A DNA stretch of 37,430 bases, taken from Candidatus Liptonbacteria bacterium (GTDB lineage: Bacteria; Patescibacteriota; Minisyncoccia; UBA6257; 2-01-FULL-56-20). The position numbers and the translations under genes were made by a program. The notes under the pieces are model-generated. The model saw only the letters and a program-made list of their open reading frames with translations. It was not told the origin of the DNA and ran no database searches. This document shows positions 3,868 through 34,168 of this stretch, piece by piece. Within the stretch, counting starts at the first letter, position 1, and each line of letters opens with the position of its first letter. The stretch is taken from assembly GCA_016867315.1 (NCBI GenBank), contig VGJV01000004.1, positions 1 through 37,430 on the forward strand. The letters are read 5' to 3'.

Positions 3868-4818
3868 ATGAATAACCGCCTGATTCCTACTTCCTTATTC
3901 CTTATTCTCGGTGTTGCGATAGGCCTTTTTTCCGTATATTTCCTTCGCAACACACCTTTTGTGCGCGGTGCCGCAGGCGGTGTGATTACTATTAGCGCGA
4001 GAATTGCGGGTCTTCCGATTCCCAATGCGGATGAGGAAGTGGCGACTATTAATTATCTCCAATCCAAGCCGGCGGTAGGAAAATGGCGTTCTCAAGTGTT
4101 CACTTCGAACGGCACGTTCACGGTGCCTACGGGAGTGACGAGGGTATGGGTTACCGCCTGGGGCGGCGGAGGTGGAGGAGGAGGCGGATATAACTGCAGT
4201 GGAAACGCGTATCACGGCGGCGGAGGCGGGAGCGGGGAAATGGTGTATCGCCAAGGAGTGGATGTGAGTGCGGGTGGGGCCATCGCAGTAACGGTAGGGC
4301 CAGCCGGTACGGGAGGTTCGGGGGCTTCGGGTTCGAATGGCACAGCCGGAGGCACCTCGACCTTCGTTGCTACAAGTATCACGATATCTGTCGCGGGAGG
4401 TGGATTTGGAAGATCCGGAGCGTGCAATGCCTCGAATGCTACAGGAGGGTCGGGTGGAGGACCGCTTGGAGGGCCAGGAGGTGCGTCATATTCTACGGCT
4501 GGTGCACTGGGTAGCTCTACACTGATTCGGATTGGAGGCGGAGGAGGCGGAGCGCAAAATGCTTCAGGCTCCTTTATGGGACCTTTTGCGGGAGGTCTTC
4601 CAGGTTCAATTAATTCTGGGGGTGGGGGCGCGGCGGGATTAAGAGGTCCAGGGGGGCGCGGCGGAAACTCAGATTTTGCGAGCACCTGCACCGCAGGACA
4701 AAGTGCTTCTTCGACGAGCGGGGCTGGAGGCGGCGGAGGAGGAGGGGTAAACAGCGGGACTGGCTGTAACGGTGGAGACGGCGGCGCCGGGGGAGTATTA
4801 GTCGAATGGGTGGAATAA
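3868..4818 (+). CDS. Gly-rich membrane-anchored surface protein, paralogue 1 of 4
   Basis: N-terminal TM, GGVITISAR, FTSNGTFTVPTGVTRVWVTAWGGGGGGGG, ends GGVLVEWVE. Confidence 0.8.
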   Translation: MNNRLIPTSLFLILGVAIGLFSVYFLRNTPFVRGAAGGVITISARIAGLPIPNADEEVATINYLQSKPAVGKWRSQVFTSNGTFTVPTGVTRVWVTAWGGGGGGGGGYNCSGNAYHGGGGGSGEMVYRQGVDVSAGGAIAVTVGPAGTGGSGASGSNGTAGGTSTFVATSITISVAGGGFGRSGACNASNATGGSGGGPLGGPGGASYSTAGALGSSTLIRIGGGGGGAQNASGSFMGPFAGGLPGSINSGGGGAAGLRGPGGRGGNSDFASTCTAGQSASSTSGAGGGGGGGVNSGTGCNGGDGGAGGVLVEWVE

Positions 4819-4845
4819 TTTCCGAAGGAGTGAGAATTAAGAATC

Positions 4846-5883
4846 ATGAATCAAGAAATAAAACATAAGGGGCCGGAATCAAGAAGGAGTTTTCGGTTGA
4901 TTTGTGCTCCTAAATTCTTGCTTCTTTTTGCGGGCGGCATCGCTCTCGTGTGGCTGGGGATTGTAGCACCGCCTCTCGTAAAAGGACAGGCAATCAAAGT
5001 GATCACCATTTCCGCGCGCGTTACGGGAGTTTCTCCTCCTACAGCGTCGGGGGACGCGCTCACGTTGGAATATTTTCAATTGCAGAGTGTAACTGCCTCC
5101 AGTAAATCACAAACCTTTACCTCGAATGGCACGTTCACAGTGCCCACGGGAGTGTCTTTGATATGGGTCACCGCCTGGGGCGGCGGCGGCGGAGGAGGAG
5201 GATCAACCGGATTTCCGCCACCAAACAGCGGAGGGTCTACTGTCGGCGGAGGCGGAGGCGGCAGCGGCGCAGTGGTGTATAAAATGCCGCTCAACGTAAG
5301 CGGCGGACAACAATACTCAGTTACAATTGGAAACGGGGGGAATGGCGGGGTAAATGTTTCTTTTCCATCTTGGGGAGACTCCTCCGGTACCGATGGTGGA
5401 GATACTAAGTTCGGTGACCTCATAGTCGCCCAGGGAGGAAAAGGGGGACCGCAAGCCAGTCAGCAAAGAGGAGGTGTAGGAGGAGGTGGGGGAGGTAGAG
5501 GAGGGCTTAACACTTCTGGAAATACTGACGGTCGGGCTGGTTACCAAACCCCTTTTGGAGTGGGAGGATCGGGAGGAGGAAGCGGAGGAAATGGAGGATA
5601 TGCAGACGCAGGAAAGGGAGGTCCTATGCCCCCATTTGCAGGAGGAACCAAAGGTTCAACGGGCAATATTGGAGGTTTATGTAATTATGTGTCCGGCGGC
5701 GGTGGAGGCGGCGGAGGGTTTCGAGGCGCGGGAGGCAACGGAGGGAATTACCACACGAACGGGTCCGGGGCAGTGACGAATACTGGAGCCGGAGGAGGGG
5801 GGGGAGGGTCCGGTTGTAACTTCGGTAACACCATTGGCGGTGGAGGAGGAGCCGGAGGCGTAATCGTCGAATGGACGGAATAG
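4846..5883 (+). CDS. Gly-rich membrane-anchored surface protein, paralogue 2 of 4
   Basis: Same architecture; FTSNGTFTVPTGVSLIWVTAWGGGGGGGG, ends GGVIVEWTE. Confidence 0.8.
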   Translation: MNQEIKHKGPESRRSFRLICAPKFLLLFAGGIALVWLGIVAPPLVKGQAIKVITISARVTGVSPPTASGDALTLEYFQLQSVTASSKSQTFTSNGTFTVPTGVSLIWVTAWGGGGGGGGSTGFPPPNSGGSTVGGGGGGSGAVVYKMPLNVSGGQQYSVTIGNGGNGGVNVSFPSWGDSSGTDGGDTKFGDLIVAQGGKGGPQASQQRGGVGGGGGGRGGLNTSGNTDGRAGYQTPFGVGGSGGGSGGNGGYADAGKGGPMPPFAGGTKGSTGNIGGLCNYVSGGGGGGGGFRGAGGNGGNYHTNGSGAVTNTGAGGGGGGSGCNFGNTIGGGGGAGGVIVEWTE

Positions 5884-5914
5884 TGTGAAAAAATAGAATC
5901 CAGAATTAGGAATC

Positions 5915-6907
5915 ATGAACCAGGAAGTAAAACATGCGGATCAGGAATTAAACGAACTCCAGCCCAAAAGAAATAAAAGGCAGGCGCTTGCTTCCTTTTT
6001 CCTGCTTCTTGCTTCTATGACCGTCGGCTTCCTCGGTGCGCACTACTTGGTGAGAGGAGCGTCGGGCGGAGTGATCACTATATCCGCGAGACTCACCGGA
6101 ATCTTGACTCCAACCCAGTCGAGTGATCTTGTCACGCGAGGCTATGTGAACACGCAATCAGGCGGGGGAGGAAGGTTGAAATCCCAAACTATTAACACCT
6201 CGAGTACCTTTACAGCCCCGACGGGAGTTTCTTTGGTATGGGTTACTGCATGGGGAGGAGGCGGAGGTGGAGGAGGAGGCTGGTATTTAGGCAATTATTG
6301 TTGCGGCGGCGGCGGAGGTGGCGGCGGAGCGGCAATATTCAGAGTGCCTATGAACACTATTTCCGGCGCCTCAATTACAGTAACGATTGGAGCGGGAGGA
6401 GCGGGCGGCGCAGGGGGGAGTAGCGGCACTGGTGGAGTCGCAGGCGGAACCACTACGGTGGTAGGCACGCTCACGCTCTCTGCAGGTGGCGGTGGTGGGG
6501 GAGATTTTATAGGTTCTGGCGGGACAGGAGGGGGAGGGGCCTTGGGAGGAGCCGGAGGACCTTTTGTATTTGAACAAGGCACTACTCAGGGGAGACCTGG
6601 AATGAGCCCCTCGAGCACGCTGGTGGCGATGGGAGGAGGCGGGGGCGGAGGGGGGTTAGGAAACTATGCAATCCCGGGAGGTACAGGCGGAAGAGTAGGG
6701 AACTATGCCGGAGCGTCAGGTACCACGTGTATTACCGGTTCTACAGGGGGAGGTGGATCTAGTTTTGCCGGATCAGGAGGGACGGGTGGATGCACTGTTG
6801 GAAATAACGCCGCTGCGAATACCGGCGCTGGCGGAGGAGGAGGGGCAGGGAACAGTTCAGGAGGCACCGGCGGTTCCGGTGGCGTCATTTTGGAATGGGT
6901 GGAATAA
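5915..6907 (+). CDS. Gly-rich membrane-anchored surface protein, paralogue 3 of 4
   Basis: Same architecture; STFTAPTGVSLVWVTAWGGGGGGGGG, ends GGVILEWVE. Confidence 0.8.
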   Translation: MNQEVKHADQELNELQPKRNKRQALASFFLLLASMTVGFLGAHYLVRGASGGVITISARLTGILTPTQSSDLVTRGYVNTQSGGGGRLKSQTINTSSTFTAPTGVSLVWVTAWGGGGGGGGGWYLGNYCCGGGGGGGGAAIFRVPMNTISGASITVTIGAGGAGGAGGSSGTGGVAGGTTTVVGTLTLSAGGGGGGDFIGSGGTGGGGALGGAGGPFVFEQGTTQGRPGMSPSSTLVAMGGGGGGGGLGNYAIPGGTGGRVGNYAGASGTTCITGSTGGGGSSFAGSGGTGGCTVGNNAAANTGAGGGGGAGNSSGGTGGSGGVILEWVE

Positions 6908-6932
6908 AATCAGGAATCAAGAAGTAAGAATC

Positions 6933-7865
6933 ATGAATAAACAATCAAAAAGCACGAATCAAGAAGGAGGAATCAAGAAGCATGAATCAAGAAGTATGCG
7001 TGCTTCTCGATTCCCGCTTCTTACTATAAGCGGTCTTCTTTTTGGAGCGATTGCAGCCTTTTTGATGGTATATCCAGCTCAATCTAAGCCGGCAGAGATT
7101 CCTTTGGGAGAAAAGCTTTTCGCCGCTTCCGGGAGAACGCAATCGCGATTATTTACTTCGGGAACCACGGTATTTACATTTCCTTCGAACGTCTCGCTTA
7201 TTTGGGTGACGCTTTGGGGTGGAGGCGGCGGAGGAGGAGGAGTTTACACCTGGAACACCCAGGGCGGTGGCGGCGGAGGCGGCGGAGAAATTATTTACAG
7301 ATATCCGGTAACGATTACGCCCGGAGCGGCGAGCTCCATAACGATAGGAGAAGGGGGAACGGGTGGAATTTCGGGGGCTTCCTACTCCGACGGGATCACC
7401 GGAGGCACTTCTTCGTTTGTGATGCCTGGTCTTAGTCTGCATGCCGCCGGAGGGGTGGGAGGATTGCATGCGAACAACCTCGGAGCAGGAGGCGCGGGAG
7501 GAGGCCCGGGCGGCGGCGGAGGCGGAAGCGGCGATGGTGGAACGGGGGGCACCGGCTCGGCCAGCACATTTGGGGCAGGCGGAGGAGGGGGTGGTGGATA
7601 TAACGGATCGGGAGGTTCGGGATTGTTTAATACGGGAGGTTCGGGAGGTGGTTCTAGCAACGCCGGTGGCGGCGGAGGTGGAAGCTTCGGCGGGCCCGGA
7701 GCGGCGGGAGGAGTGGCGAACTGCGGCGCAGGAGGAATTGGAGCCGCGAATACCGGTGGCGGCGGAGGCGGAGCAGCCAGCAGGCATTACAGTAGCGGCG
7801 GTGGTTGCGGTAATTACGGTGGAAAAGGCGGCTCCGGCGGAATGATTATCGAGTGGATTCAGTAA
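6933..7865 (+). CDS. Gly-rich membrane-anchored surface protein, paralogue 4 of 4
   Basis: ATG 6933 (MNKQSKSTNQE...), TTVFTFPSNVSLIWVTLWGGGGGGGG, ends GGMIIEWIQ; listed ORF start 6705 is probably too early. Confidence 0.75.
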   Translation: MNKQSKSTNQEGGIKKHESRSMRASRFPLLTISGLLFGAIAAFLMVYPAQSKPAEIPLGEKLFAASGRTQSRLFTSGTTVFTFPSNVSLIWVTLWGGGGGGGGVYTWNTQGGGGGGGGEIIYRYPVTITPGAASSITIGEGGTGGISGASYSDGITGGTSSFVMPGLSLHAAGGVGGLHANNLGAGGAGGGPGGGGGGSGDGGTGGTGSASTFGAGGGGGGGYNGSGGSGLFNTGGSGGGSSNAGGGGGGSFGGPGAAGGVANCGAGGIGAANTGGGGGGAASRHYSSGGGCGNYGGKGGSGGMIIEWIQ

Positions 7866-8631: not shown

Positions 8632-11328
8632 TTATTCTAAATGAAGGCCCCGCTCGAACTCCATAAGTTTCTTTTTGAGCAGCGGATGCTTTTTAAGCTC
8701 CGAGTCTGCACGAAGAATTTCTTTCGCCGCTTCGCGGGTAGAAGAGACCAGTGGAGGATCGGTTAAAGCCTCCATGGCAACATCCGGGAACCCAGTCTGG
8801 GAGGTGCCTAAAAATTCTCCCGGTCCTCGGAGCTTCAAATCTTTTTCCGCCAGTTCAAACCCATTCTTTGCTTCAGTGATTGCCTTCAGGCGTTCGCGAG
8901 TAGACTTCGAATCGGAATCGGTAAAGAGAAAGCAATACGATTCATGTGCGCCCCGGCCCACGCGCCCGCGAAGCTGATAAAGCTGGGCGAGTCCAAAGCG
9001 ATCCGAACCCTCGATCATCATGATAGAGGCATTCGGCACGTCCACTCCCACCTCGATCACCGTCGTAGAGACGAGGACATCCAAGTTGCCTTCCCGGAAT
9101 TCTTTCATGATAGCTTCCTTCTCTACGGGTTTCATTTTGCCGTGAAGCATTCCCACTTGGAGATCCAGAAATATTTTTGCAGAGAGTCTTTCGTATTCTT
9201 CCTCTACGGTCCTTACATCCCACGCAGACAGTTGCGGACGTGACGCCGACAGTCGCGGACGTTTTTCTGCGTCTGTCCGCGTTTCTTCTGCGCCTGTCTG
9301 CGGAGCCTGGATGCGGGGGCAGATCACAAACGCCTGCCTGCCTTGCTGCACCTGGCCGCGAATGAATTCATACGCCTTCTCTCTCTTTTCGGGCGGGACG
9401 ATATGCGTTTTCACGGGTTTTCGGCCTGGGGGAAGCTCCGTAATCGTCGAGAGATCGAGATCCCCGAAGACGGTGAGAGTTAGGGTCCGAGGGATGGGAG
9501 TCGCGGACATACTTAAGAAATGCGGCAAGGACGCGGACAGTTGCGGACCTGACGCGGACAGTGGCGGAATTGCACGGGCAGTATCGTAAATAATTCTGTC
9601 GATCCTAAGTTTTTCTGGCCCGAAGTTCGCAAGTAGGGCGAGTTTATAAGGAGACCCTTTCAGGTAATTCCAGATTTGCTTTTTTTCAATTTGCCCTACA
9701 AAAGGCAATGCTTTGAGTTCCAATATTACCTTGTCGCTCACTACAAAGTCGGGACGATATACCCCAACTTTTTTATCGCCGTACTTTACTGGTATGGATT
9801 TCTCAACTTCAAAATATATACCTTTTCTTTTAAACTCCTCTTCAATAGCTTTTTCATAAATATTCTCTTTATGACCGAGGCCTAAAGTCTTTCTTACTTC
9901 AAAAAGGCATTCTCTAATTTGAAATGTTATGTCCTCATAAAGAAGTTTACTTTCCGCGTCTGTCCGCGTTTCATTCCGCGTCTGTCCGCGGGCGAGCAGG
10001 GCTCGCTGCCTGACGCCAAATCGGTGTTGTTCATCGACTACCACTAACCCCAGCGAGTGCCATGTGACGGCTTTGGAAAGCAGCGCATGCGTGCCGATGG
10101 CGATGGGAATCGTGCCGTTTTGAATAGCCGTAAGAAGTTTCTTTTTGGATTTTTCCTGCTCGAGACTCCCGTCGTGAGCAATCAGAGTTTCGTGGCTCGT
10201 GAGTAATGCGACAGGCACGGTAATCCTTATAGTATCGATCAGTTTTTTGAACGTTTCATAATGCTGGCGCGCGAGTACCTCGGTAGGAGCCATAACTGCG
10301 GTTTGGAGCCCCGCTTCAGCGGCGAGGAAGGCGGTAAGCGCCGCAATCACGGTTTTTCCCGATCCCACATCTCCCTGAAGCAGACGATTCATAGGATGCG
10401 GTTCGCGAATATCCTGGAGAATCTCCCAAAGTGATTTTTTCTGGGAAGAGGTGAGAGGGAAAGGGAGAGTTTCCAAAAAGGCTTTTACGCGTTCGATCGA
10501 GGCCGGAACTGCTGGTGCAGTCTCTTTCTGGAGAGCCATTCTTTGTTCCAAATTCGAAAGCTGAAGGAGGAAGAGATCCTCAAACGCGAAACGCCGCTTC
10601 GCTCGAGCCGCGTCTTCGAGTGTGAGAGGGAAATGTACTGCTCGAAGCGCATCGTTTACCTCCAGCAAATTTTCTTTTTCTAAAATCTGTGAAGGAATGA
10701 ATTCCCAAAGAGGCTCGATAGCGTCCAAAAGAGGATGGATAAGAAAACGAATGCCCTTGGAGGTAAGGCCTTTAGTTTCGGGGTAGATTGGCACAAGCCG
10801 CCCGGTGTGCCTAGTCGCGGACAGTTGCGGACTTGACGCGGACAGTGGCTGACCAGATTCGTCCACGTATTGTTCCGCGTCTGTCTGCATTCCATTCGGC
10901 CCTTGTCCGCGGTCAGTAAGTTCATACGTAGGATTATTCAGATATACATCTCCTTCTTCATTGGTGCCCACTTTCCCGGAAAAGTTATACCAATGTCCTT
11001 GCCGTAAAGAATGTGCTACATAAGGTTGGTTGAACCACACTGCCCGGAGCGAGCCGCTGGCATCCGCGAGTTCCGCCTCGACCACGACAAAACGCCTCCG
11101 CCAGCTTCGGCGGGATTCTGTACTTACCACCTGCGCCTGGATGGTGATGCGTTCACCTACTTCGAGATCAGAAATAGGCCGGAACGCCGAAAAATCTTCA
11201 TAGCGAACCGGAAAGTGAGAAAGAAGTTCTCGCACGGTCCTAATTCCCAGACGAGAGAGATGAGTTAAAAACCGTTTAGGAACGTGAGGGAATTCAGCTA
11301 ATGGAGTATCGAGAGGGATAGAATTCAT
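8632..11328 (-). CDS. recG: ATP-dependent DNA helicase RecG with in-frame insertions
   Basis: GDVGSGKTVIAALTAFLAAEAG, APTEVLARQHYETFK, VVVDEQHRFGVRQR, SMSATPIPRTLTLT, QLRGRVGRGAHESYCFLF. Confidence 0.93.
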   Translation of the reverse strand: MNSIPLDTPLAEFPHVPKRFLTHLSRLGIRTVRELLSHFPVRYEDFSAFRPISDLEVGERITIQAQVVSTESRRSWRRRFVVVEAELADASGSLRAVWFNQPYVAHSLRQGHWYNFSGKVGTNEEGDVYLNNPTYELTDRGQGPNGMQTDAEQYVDESGQPLSASSPQLSATRHTGRLVPIYPETKGLTSKGIRFLIHPLLDAIEPLWEFIPSQILEKENLLEVNDALRAVHFPLTLEDAARAKRRFAFEDLFLLQLSNLEQRMALQKETAPAVPASIERVKAFLETLPFPLTSSQKKSLWEILQDIREPHPMNRLLQGDVGSGKTVIAALTAFLAAEAGLQTAVMAPTEVLARQHYETFKKLIDTIRITVPVALLTSHETLIAHDGSLEQEKSKKKLLTAIQNGTIPIAIGTHALLSKAVTWHSLGLVVVDEQHRFGVRQRALLARGQTRNETRTDAESKLLYEDITFQIRECLFEVRKTLGLGHKENIYEKAIEEEFKRKGIYFEVEKSIPVKYGDKKVGVYRPDFVVSDKVILELKALPFVGQIEKKQIWNYLKGSPYKLALLANFGPEKLRIDRIIYDTARAIPPLSASGPQLSASLPHFLSMSATPIPRTLTLTVFGDLDLSTITELPPGRKPVKTHIVPPEKREKAYEFIRGQVQQGRQAFVICPRIQAPQTGAEETRTDAEKRPRLSASRPQLSAWDVRTVEEEYERLSAKIFLDLQVGMLHGKMKPVEKEAIMKEFREGNLDVLVSTTVIEVGVDVPNASIMMIEGSDRFGLAQLYQLRGRVGRGAHESYCFLFTDSDSKSTRERLKAITEAKNGFELAEKDLKLRGPGEFLGTSQTGFPDVAMEALTDPPLVSSTREAAKEILRADSELKKHPLLKKKLMEFERGLHLE
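9223..9302. repeat. Palindromic repeat element A inside recG (in frame)
   Basis: CGCAGACAG 9223-9231 / CTGTCTGCG 9294-9302; internal GCGGAC..GTCCGC repeats; encodes EETRTDAEKRPRLSASRPQLSA on the minus strand. Confidence 0.75.
9526..9984 (-). mobile_element. In-frame insertion in recG encoding a GxxExxxY-family (PD-(D/E)XK-like) domain, flanked by halves of the palindromic repeat
   Basis: 459 bp (153 aa) between RALLARG and PHFLSMSATPIPRT; contains LLYEDITFQIRECLFEVRKTLGLGHKENIYEKAIEEEFKRKGIYFEVEKSIPVKYGDKKVGVYRPDFVVSDKVILELKAL. Confidence 0.75.
10816..10911. repeat. Palindromic repeat element C inside recG (in frame)
   Basis: CGCGGACA 10816-10823 / TGTCCGCG 10904-10911; encodes MQTDAEQYVDESGQPLSASSPQLSA. 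Confidence 0.7.
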
Positions 11329-32407: not shown

Positions 32408-32691
32408 TGGCTCCGGCGGCAGGGATCGAACCTGCGACCATCTCCTTACACTTGTCCCACTGTTACCAATAGGGGTGGACTATATCATTGCCATAATCCA
32501 ATAAAGGATCGTAGGCATCTCGGTATCTAGTCTCTACGGTGCCCCCGTGATCGCGTAAGCGATTTTACGGGGTTCCCACGGTATTGCCCATTGCTGGGTT
32601 CCACCGTTATCCCGAGATTTTTACATCGCACAATTTCTTGTGCAAGCTGCCTTACTGACAGGGAGCCGCTCTACCGCTGAGCTACGCCGGA
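32408..32691 (-). tRNA. tRNA-Asn(GUU) interrupted by a group I intron; CCA encoded
   Basis: Exons TCCGGCGTAGCTCAGCGGTAGAGCGGCTCCCTGT + TAAGGAGATGGTCGCAGGTTCGATCCCTGCCGCCGGAGCCA fold as tRNA with loop CTGTTAA, acceptor TCCGGCG/CGCCGGA. Confidence 0.82.
32449..32657 (-). ncRNA. Group I intron (IC3-like), ~209 nt, no ORF
   Basis: GTAGAGACTAGA...ATATAGTCC (R/S, P7), P3 ATCTCGG/CCGAGAT, P1 CUGU/GCAG with U-G at 5' splice site, terminal G. Confidence 0.85.
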
Positions 32692-32785
32692 ATGCGTCTC
32701 CAGTGTACCGCAGCTTCGGCGATTTTCAAGTACGAGGTCATAGTCATTTGTTATAAGTTATGAGTCATTTCTGTATGATACATAC

Positions 32786-34168
32786 ATGCGTTTCCTCCTC
32801 GTTGCCGTTGGCGCAGGGGCAATAGGAATTACCCTTTCTTATGGGATGGTGTCGCGTCTTGCCGGCCATCCCGCCTCTTTAGGAGAAACCAAAGCCCTTA
32901 TTTCACAAACACTCAAAGGCGCGTTCGAGGGCAAGAAGCCACTTATGGAAATTTCTCTCGCGGATCGGCCCAAGCCTCAATCTGTTTCACTTCCCACAAA
33001 AGAAGAGAAAAAAGTTTCTGCTCCAGTCCCGAAAGTGGAAAAAGCCGCGGTACTCGAGGTTGTTCCAACTTCCACGCCCATAATTTCTTCTACCGCCTCT
33101 TCCGTGCCTGTTCCTCCGCCTACCCCAAAACCAATTCGAACGTGCGATTTTGAAACCAAAGAAGCCTCGCATCTTGTACTTTTGAATGAGCTTGCGTGGA
33201 TGGGAATGCTCCTGCGGGAGGAAGATGAAGGAGGCGGCGCTCAAGCCGAATGGATCGAGCTTAAAAATAATTCTGGTAAAGATTTGTCTCTCGCGGGATG
33301 GAAAATTATAAACAAAACAGGGAAATTCAAAATCGAATTCGAGACCGAAGACCGCCTTTCGGAAGGAACCTTCTTTCTCCTAGAGCGGGGGAATGATGAA
33401 GCAGTCCCTGAAATGGAAGCGGACAAATTATATGCCGGTGTGCTTTCGAATGTTGGGGATTGGCTCCGACTCTTCGATGCGGACTGCAAATTGATTGATG
33501 AAGTAGATGCGGCTCACGGTTGGGCAGGAGGAGAGAATGCCTCGAAGAAAACAATGGAAAGAAGTGCGATCGACTTGAGCTGGCACACGAGTGGGAATGC
33601 GGGAGGTACCCCAAAACGCGATAATTCCGCCGTGTACAACAAAAATACTTCCCTCGCCCTCCTTGCTGCGCCTTCTACCCCGAGTGCCGTTTCTCCTTCC
33701 GCTCCTCTCAATTCCGCGTCTGCTTCCACGACTGCAGGGAAAATAAATATTAACACCGCGAGTGGGGCGGAGCTCGAAAAAATCACGGGCGTAGGTCCCA
33801 CGCTGGCTCAAAAAATAATCGACTATCGCACGCAACACGGTTTGTTCGAGCAGATCGAAGATATTAAAAAAGTGAGTGGCATCGGAGAGGTGACCTTTGA
33901 AAAAATGAAAAGCGAGATTACTGTTGGAGAGGTAAGCCCCTCGTCTTCCGCACCCGCTTCCTCAGTCGCCACCGATAAGATCAATATTAATACGGCAGGG
34001 AAAGAGGAGCTCGAGAAAATTACCGGCGTAGGGGCGACCATCGCGCAGCGTATAATAGACTACCGCACTTTAAACGGGCCTTTCAGCCAAATTGAAGACG
34101 TGAAGAACGTAAAAGGAATCGGAGAGGCCACGTTCGAGAAAATGAAAAATGAAATAAGCGTACAGTAA
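32786..34168 (+). CDS. Lamin-tail-domain protein with two C-terminal ComEA-type HhH domains
   Basis: LTD-like LNELAWMG...AEWIELKNNSGKDLSLAGWKI; two repeats KININTA...LEKITGVG..(A)QxIIDYRT. Confidence 0.88.
   Translation: MRFLLVAVGAGAIGITLSYGMVSRLAGHPASLGETKALISQTLKGAFEGKKPLMEISLADRPKPQSVSLPTKEEKKVSAPVPKVEKAAVLEVVPTSTPIISSTASSVPVPPPTPKPIRTCDFETKEASHLVLLNELAWMGMLLREEDEGGGAQAEWIELKNNSGKDLSLAGWKIINKTGKFKIEFETEDRLSEGTFFLLERGNDEAVPEMEADKLYAGVLSNVGDWLRLFDADCKLIDEVDAAHGWAGGENASKKTMERSAIDLSWHTSGNAGGTPKRDNSAVYNKNTSLALLAAPSTPSAVSPSAPLNSASASTTAGKININTASGAELEKITGVGPTLAQKIIDYRTQHGLFEQIEDIKKVSGIGEVTFEKMKSEITVGEVSPSSSAPASSVATDKININTAGKEELEKITGVGATIAQRIIDYRTLNGPFSQIEDVKNVKGIGEATFEKMKNEISVQ

Follow-up and report, generated by a model that had tools for sequence, protein, structure and literature searches.

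How does a bacterium read its asparagine codons when the only tRNA-Asn gene found in its genome is cut in two within the anticodon itself? This is the question raised by positions 32691-32408, on the minus strand of the window, by which we mean the whole stretch of 37,430 nucleotides analysed here, from a Candidatus Liptonbacteria contig. A 209-nt insertion there separates U35 from U36 of a gene for tRNA-Asn(GUU). Once the exons are joined, ARAGORN calls a tRNA-Asn(gtt) of 75 nt, with its CCA encoded, just as a preliminary description of the locus had expected of the spliced form; from the unspliced window it calls no tRNA at all. When introns are allowed, the same program proposes a tRNA-Asp(gtc) in which the intron is misplaced, a candidate that is ruled out by the intact gene of a congener. 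The gene and its immediate surroundings are organized as follows:

32658..32691, minus strand: 5' exon of tRNA-Asn(GUU), positions 1-35, ending in C32 U33 G34 U35; same as in the intronless ortholog (locus L358) of congener G034.
32449..32657, minus strand: group I intron of 209 nt, its last base a conserved G (32449); seen with RF00028, with a held-out family model and from the empty site in the congener.
32408..32448, minus strand: 3' exon, from U36 A37 A38 through the encoded CCA; the joined exons are called by ARAGORN.
32702..32729, minus strand: promoter-like TTGAAA-16-TACACT, recognized by consensus match, with some 10 nt between it and the tRNA downstream.
32786..34168, plus strand: gene of a ComEA-like protein, the divergent neighbour; a similar stretch adjoins the intronless tRNA-Asn in both congeners.

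That the insert is a real group I intron, lodged between U35 and U36 as first proposed, is confirmed. Helices P1 to P9 and the P3/P7 pseudoknot can all be drawn, including P6a, P8, P9.0 and the last G:

32646..32661, minus strand: P1, where exon CUGU (32661-32658) pairs with guide GCAG (32650-32647), with a U-G wobble at the splice site; pairs kept in 16/16 sequences covering P1.
32657-32651, minus strand: L1 loop, the place where relatives hold an HNH ORF.
32626..32645, minus strand: P2 hairpin with a GAAA loop; two-sided changes in 8/8 pairs among relatives.
32612..32618, minus strand: 5' strand of P3, AUCUCGG, with its partner CCGAGAU at 32523-32517.
Within 32578..32607, minus strand: P4 (32607-32603 with 32582-32578); 98.8% of cells paired, 5/5 pairs with two-sided changes.
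Within 32578..32607, minus strand: P5 (32598-32596 with 32589-32587).
32538..32576, minus strand: P6 and P6a; one P6 pair shows a G-C/C-G swap, P6a is weaker.
32478..32532, minus strand: P7, GACUA 32532-32528 with UAGUC 32482-32478, crossing P3 and enclosing P8; invariant in 17 sequences.
32450..32476, minus strand: P9.0 (32476-32475 with 32451-32450) and the P9 hairpin (32473-32456); two-sided changes in both.

Fifty of the 51 pairs of this fold are standard; the outermost pair of P1, C-C here, is not. What marks a group I intron is present throughout: the core helices P3, P4, P6, P7 and P8 with the P3/P7 pseudoknot, the U-G pair at the 5' splice site, and an omega G at 32449 preceded by P9.0. 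The P7 and P3 strands, the splice-site pair and the final G are those that the preliminary description had picked out. Covariation was followed in 17 introns, that of the window and 16 same-site introns of other genomes: two-sided changes affect 33 pairs, each in one intron or more, and occupy 170 cells, against 64 in shuffles and 38-77 when partners are slid. Subgroup IC3, suggested by motifs in the preliminary description, is a candidate assignment; by its sequence the window intron lacks additional helices in the interval from P7 to P3, a feature that some same-site relatives do have.

Covariance models agree with this anatomy, at rather different levels. RF00028 matches positions 32671-32456 with an E value of 1.3e-9, and in this respect the check suggested at the outset came out significant, but the score of 42.1 bits does not reach the gathering score of 50, which is a curated threshold and not a structural feature. 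Because of this shortfall a default Rfam scan, or one at curated cut-offs, is silent on the intron, and nothing is reported in the window at the gathering threshold. A model based on 18 further tRNA-Asn introns, with the window intron held out, gives it 136.4 bits (E 7.2e-40). Run on the whole bin (G000), the tRNA-Asn intron model finds three further matches. That in tRNA-Phe(GAA) is a second tRNA group I intron of this genome (L001 1479-1746, that is C1:201164-201431), apparently inserted at 33/34; additional helices lie between its P7 and P3, and it scores 50.9 bits with RF00028. Similar tRNA-Phe introns recur in the family (L050, L055, L060), several of them near tRNA-Pro/Arg genes. The other two are group I matches on the 23S rRNA contig (C7, L003), at 1489-1685 and 2039-2165, the second seen with the tRNA-Asn intron model only.

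We can understand the locus, with a probability of about 0.88, as an endonuclease-free member of a mobile group I lineage that uses the CUGU half of Asn and Asp anticodon loops, and that splices the sole tRNA-Asn found. Group I introns are excised in two steps, initiated by guanosine. Here the guide GCAG of the transcript would pair with exon CUGU to form P1, a guanosine bound at P7 would attack after U35, and the freed U35 would in turn attack after the last G of the intron and join U36, leaving an intact GUU anticodon. Judging from its anatomy the intron is probably self-splicing, and the reaction would proceed without protein help.

The history of the insertion can be read in close relatives. 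In congener G034 the ortholog (L358) is uninterrupted: it aligns to window positions 32693-32658 and then directly to 32448-32373, with no filler in the gap, it is 100% identical over the tRNA, it is called as tRNA-Asn by ARAGORN, and it is accompanied by sequence resembling the ComEA-like neighbour. In a second congener, G033, the gene next to that neighbour likewise lacks the intron, and its exons have diverged. Another genus of the family displays the same alternation, with the intron in G035 and G036 and an intact match in G037. The G27-A43 mismatch of the anticodon stem, noticed early on, is real, and because the intronless ortholog with identical exons carries it too, it is no intron-related defect; its interpretation as decay is ruled out by the same gene. 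We infer that the intron was gained here rather than lost in the congeners, two directions that the tree alone cannot separate. The uninterrupted, identical gene of G034 and that of the window make a clean natural pair to study gain, cost and mobility.

The intron would be a mobile guest rather than a fixture passed down by descent, from a lineage whose members insert into tRNA genes at the CUGU half-site of tRNA-Asn(GUU) and tRNA-Asp(GUC). The CUGU half-loop is common to both tRNAs, and within the family the same intron type sits at 35/36 of tRNA-Asp, as established by exon analysis for L066 and L071 and assigned by sequence and model score for L064 and L075. The window intron is not itself a homing intron, only kin of some: since its 209 nt hold no ORF, hence no endonuclease gene, in agreement with the preliminary description, it has not been filed as one. 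In about two dozen long introns an ORF bearing an HNH signature occupies the P1 loop, after the 5' splice site and ahead of the guide; one of these introns (L058) comes from the same bacterial family as the window. One intron ORF matches phrog_2255 in PHROGs (E 3e-29), and none has a Pfam match over cut-off, HNH scoring 17.6 bits against a cut-off of 21.4. Other types of endonuclease occur in phage tRNA introns, with LAGLIDADG in an 844-nt tRNA-Asn intron (L222) and PD-(D/E)XK in a tRNA-Lys intron (L232), both on viral contigs.

The route that we favour is entry by means of an HNH homing endonuclease encoded in the P1 loop, followed, probably, by loss of the ORF in the window copy. A variant of this reading, which we find unlikely while keeping it in mind, would replace endonuclease homing by reverse splicing, reverse transcription and recombination. 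The guide GCAG would recognize any CUGU loop, which fits the spread over tRNA-Asn and tRNA-Asp, and both the window copy and most of its relatives have no long ORF; yet the HNH ORFs found in the same lineage at the same site offer a DNA route. The site shared by Asn and Asp, together with these HNH-bearing cousins, makes the route of spread directly testable.

Could the intron have been present in the ancestor of the family, and then lost many times without any recent movement? Intron cores do carry some host-group signal, with 47 label changes against 87 in shuffles, and the cyanobacterial introns form one clade. This proposal is nevertheless largely refuted, and we give it little credit: a single clade for the family's eight Asn introns is rejected (p-AU 4.8e-14), the nearest intron by tree path is an HNH-bearing one on a Nealsonbacteria contig (L130), and the congeners lack the intron, G034 with the very same exons. 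The window intron belongs to a 15-row set with an SH-aLRT of 100 in a quick tree, and a 15-row set stands at 99/91 in a careful tree; the window's set brings together introns of the same family, others from CPR bacteria, one from a Bacteroidota MAG and two tRNA-Asp introns, its long HNH-bearing members being L058, L125, L130 and L191. These trees rest on short alignments of intron cores (165-168 columns) in which deep placements are weak, and L104, which is apparently the same record as L063 (the intron is identical and the contigs are equally long), was omitted from the careful one. Presence or absence at one site among close relatives and an intron tree unlike the host grouping, as expected of mobile group I introns, are both observed here.

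How much does the cell depend on this guest? The bin comprises 878,862 bases in 14 contigs and is 99.5% complete. No second tRNA-Asn appears among all its RF00005 matches above cut-off, two of which were judged by eye, so that the other complete copy named at the outset as part of a refutation was not found, and a pattern search retrieves no intact CTGTTAA loop from the genome; the assembly being binned, with at least one contig that is probably archaeal, an unbinned second tRNA-Asn remains conceivable. The scan of related genomes, another check proposed at the start, located the same insertion site in 8/38 genomes of the family (G000, G006, G008, G012, G024, G031, G035, G036). None of these eight (0/8) has an intact match, against 22/30 of the others. 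A sample of 380 genomes of the phylum tells a similar story: the interrupted pattern is found in 66, the intact one in 267 and both in 11, an overlap counted by eye from tables, so that intact matches occur in 11/66 of the genomes with an interrupted pattern against 256/314 of the rest (Fisher p 9e-24). There were 68 interrupted-pattern matches, of which at least two look spurious (that of G256 and one of two in G228), and as the pattern fits any tRNA with U36 a fair statement is that about 65 of the 380 genomes, mostly with Asn, are concerned. The CPR context, initially held to be notable, is thus typical. Fifty-five of the 66 genomes show no intact match and look as if they were without tRNA-Asn; more generally, split genes escape standard tRNA finders, and many genomes consequently seem to lack this tRNA. 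With an essential and apparently single-copy tRNA interrupted in this way, translation of asparagine codons would hinge on a ribozyme, a parasitic RNA, excising itself. That the insert has ceased to splice, the tRNA being a pseudogene and the true tRNA-Asn missing from the assembly, is very hard to believe, for although the RF00028 score is under cut-off and the bin is fragmented and includes a foreign contig, all core pairs are kept, the exons are identical to those of the intact ortholog, the bin, 99.5% complete, yielded no other tRNA-Asn, and intact and interrupted genes exclude each other in many genomes as well.

The foreign contig deserves a comment of its own. Contig C2 (L362, L363; 10000-40000 of 123337) carries transcription factor S and GatD over cut-off, and a transcription factor E-like protein below cut-off (E 4e-33); by its gene content, the contig, about 123 kb of the Patescibacteria bin, is probably contamination of DPANN origin, overlooked by bacterial marker checks. 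The same contig holds two tRNA genes with an insert in the anticodon loop, 60 nt long in tRNA-Arg(UCG), about 147 nt long and highly structured (fold z-score -5.2) in tRNA-Lys(CUU) (L044 101-232 and L077 1685-1906). They were considered as a second kind of intron of this bacterium, and the idea was rejected: because the contig carries archaeal genes, they are most likely archaeal tRNA introns. Elsewhere in the window, a RecG helicase ORF (8632-11328, minus strand) contains, at residues 466-578, an in-frame PDDEXK_3 domain that separates its two helicase domains, as well as a family of 37-nt repeats, D7, at 9223, 9511, 9532 and 10816, and four tandem paralogous glycine-rich ORFs (3868-7865, plus strand) share repeats D1 and D4-D6.

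Beyond the phylum, tRNA-Asn proves to be anything but the unusual host that the preliminary description had taken it for. With a pattern that takes in the 3' strand of P7 together with the 3' exon, position 35/36 of tRNA-Asn accounts for 98 of at least 117 GTDB matches, among the matches listed, and tRNA-Asn for 38/63 matches in viral contigs. The hosts among the matches listed, named as deposited and with misbinning possible, extend from many CPR groups to Omnitrophota, Cyanobacteriota, Nitrospirota, Elusimicrobiota, Acidobacteriota, Bacteroidota, Planctomycetota and Rokuibacteriota, and to two Pacearchaeota contigs. One of these two, which may both have been misbinned, has a tRNA-Asn group I intron at 1913-2179 (L081; 83 bits with RF00028), and the other (L086) has, near 1318-1374, a tRNA-Asn intron with an HNH-like ORF of 70 aa, no RF00028 match at E 0.01, and nearby a Taw3-like gene, under the model cut-off yet with E 5e-38. 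It is possible, although we lean somewhat against it, that the 35/36 tRNA-Asn introns form an uncharted, cross-domain mobile lineage specialised on the CUGU anticodon loops of Asn and Asp, with HNH in the P1 loop, whose hosts would be Patescibacteria and other bacterial phyla, phages and DPANN archaea. If true, group I introns would here be reported for the first time from tRNA genes of archaea.

A 2025 preprint by Nakagawa reportedly describes a new group I intron insertion site in tRNA genes of Patescibacteria. Its title is cited in the reference list of PMC12641178, and as far as that title goes its introns share phylum, intron kind and class of host gene with that of the window, so that the preprint may already hold the 35/36 site of tRNA-Asn. 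Its full text aside, none of the papers that our search covered gives tRNA-Asn as a host of group I introns in bacteria. According to Lui et al. 2021 (PMC8172020), group I introns interrupt some tRNAs of circularized genomes, mostly from CPR bacteria, and such tRNAs are difficult to find; the passages concerned name no hosts or sites, where the window has tRNA-Asn 35/36. The insertions of CPR bacteria reported in PMC11270868, with their homing endonucleases, are intron-like and mobile as here, and share CPR hosts, but they reside in rRNA, unlike the window intron, and the word tRNA is absent from that text. The 39 archaeal group I introns of Nawrocki 2018 (PMC6125680) are likewise all in rRNA genes, of uncultured archaea, unlike L081 and L086, which are in tRNA-Asn.

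It is with the known group I introns of tRNA genes that we file the intron of the window. In bacteria these are small, and the 5' exon ends with U. The hosts named for them include tRNA-Leu(UAA) of cyanobacteria and plastids, tRNA-fMet, tRNA-Ile2(CAU) and tRNA-Arg(CCU) (PMC8450103, PMC4033280, PMC5733544). Like them, the window intron is a small group I ribozyme seated in the anticodon loop of a tRNA, behind a 5' exon ending in U; unlike them, it has tRNA-Asn for its host, and is inserted at 35/36.
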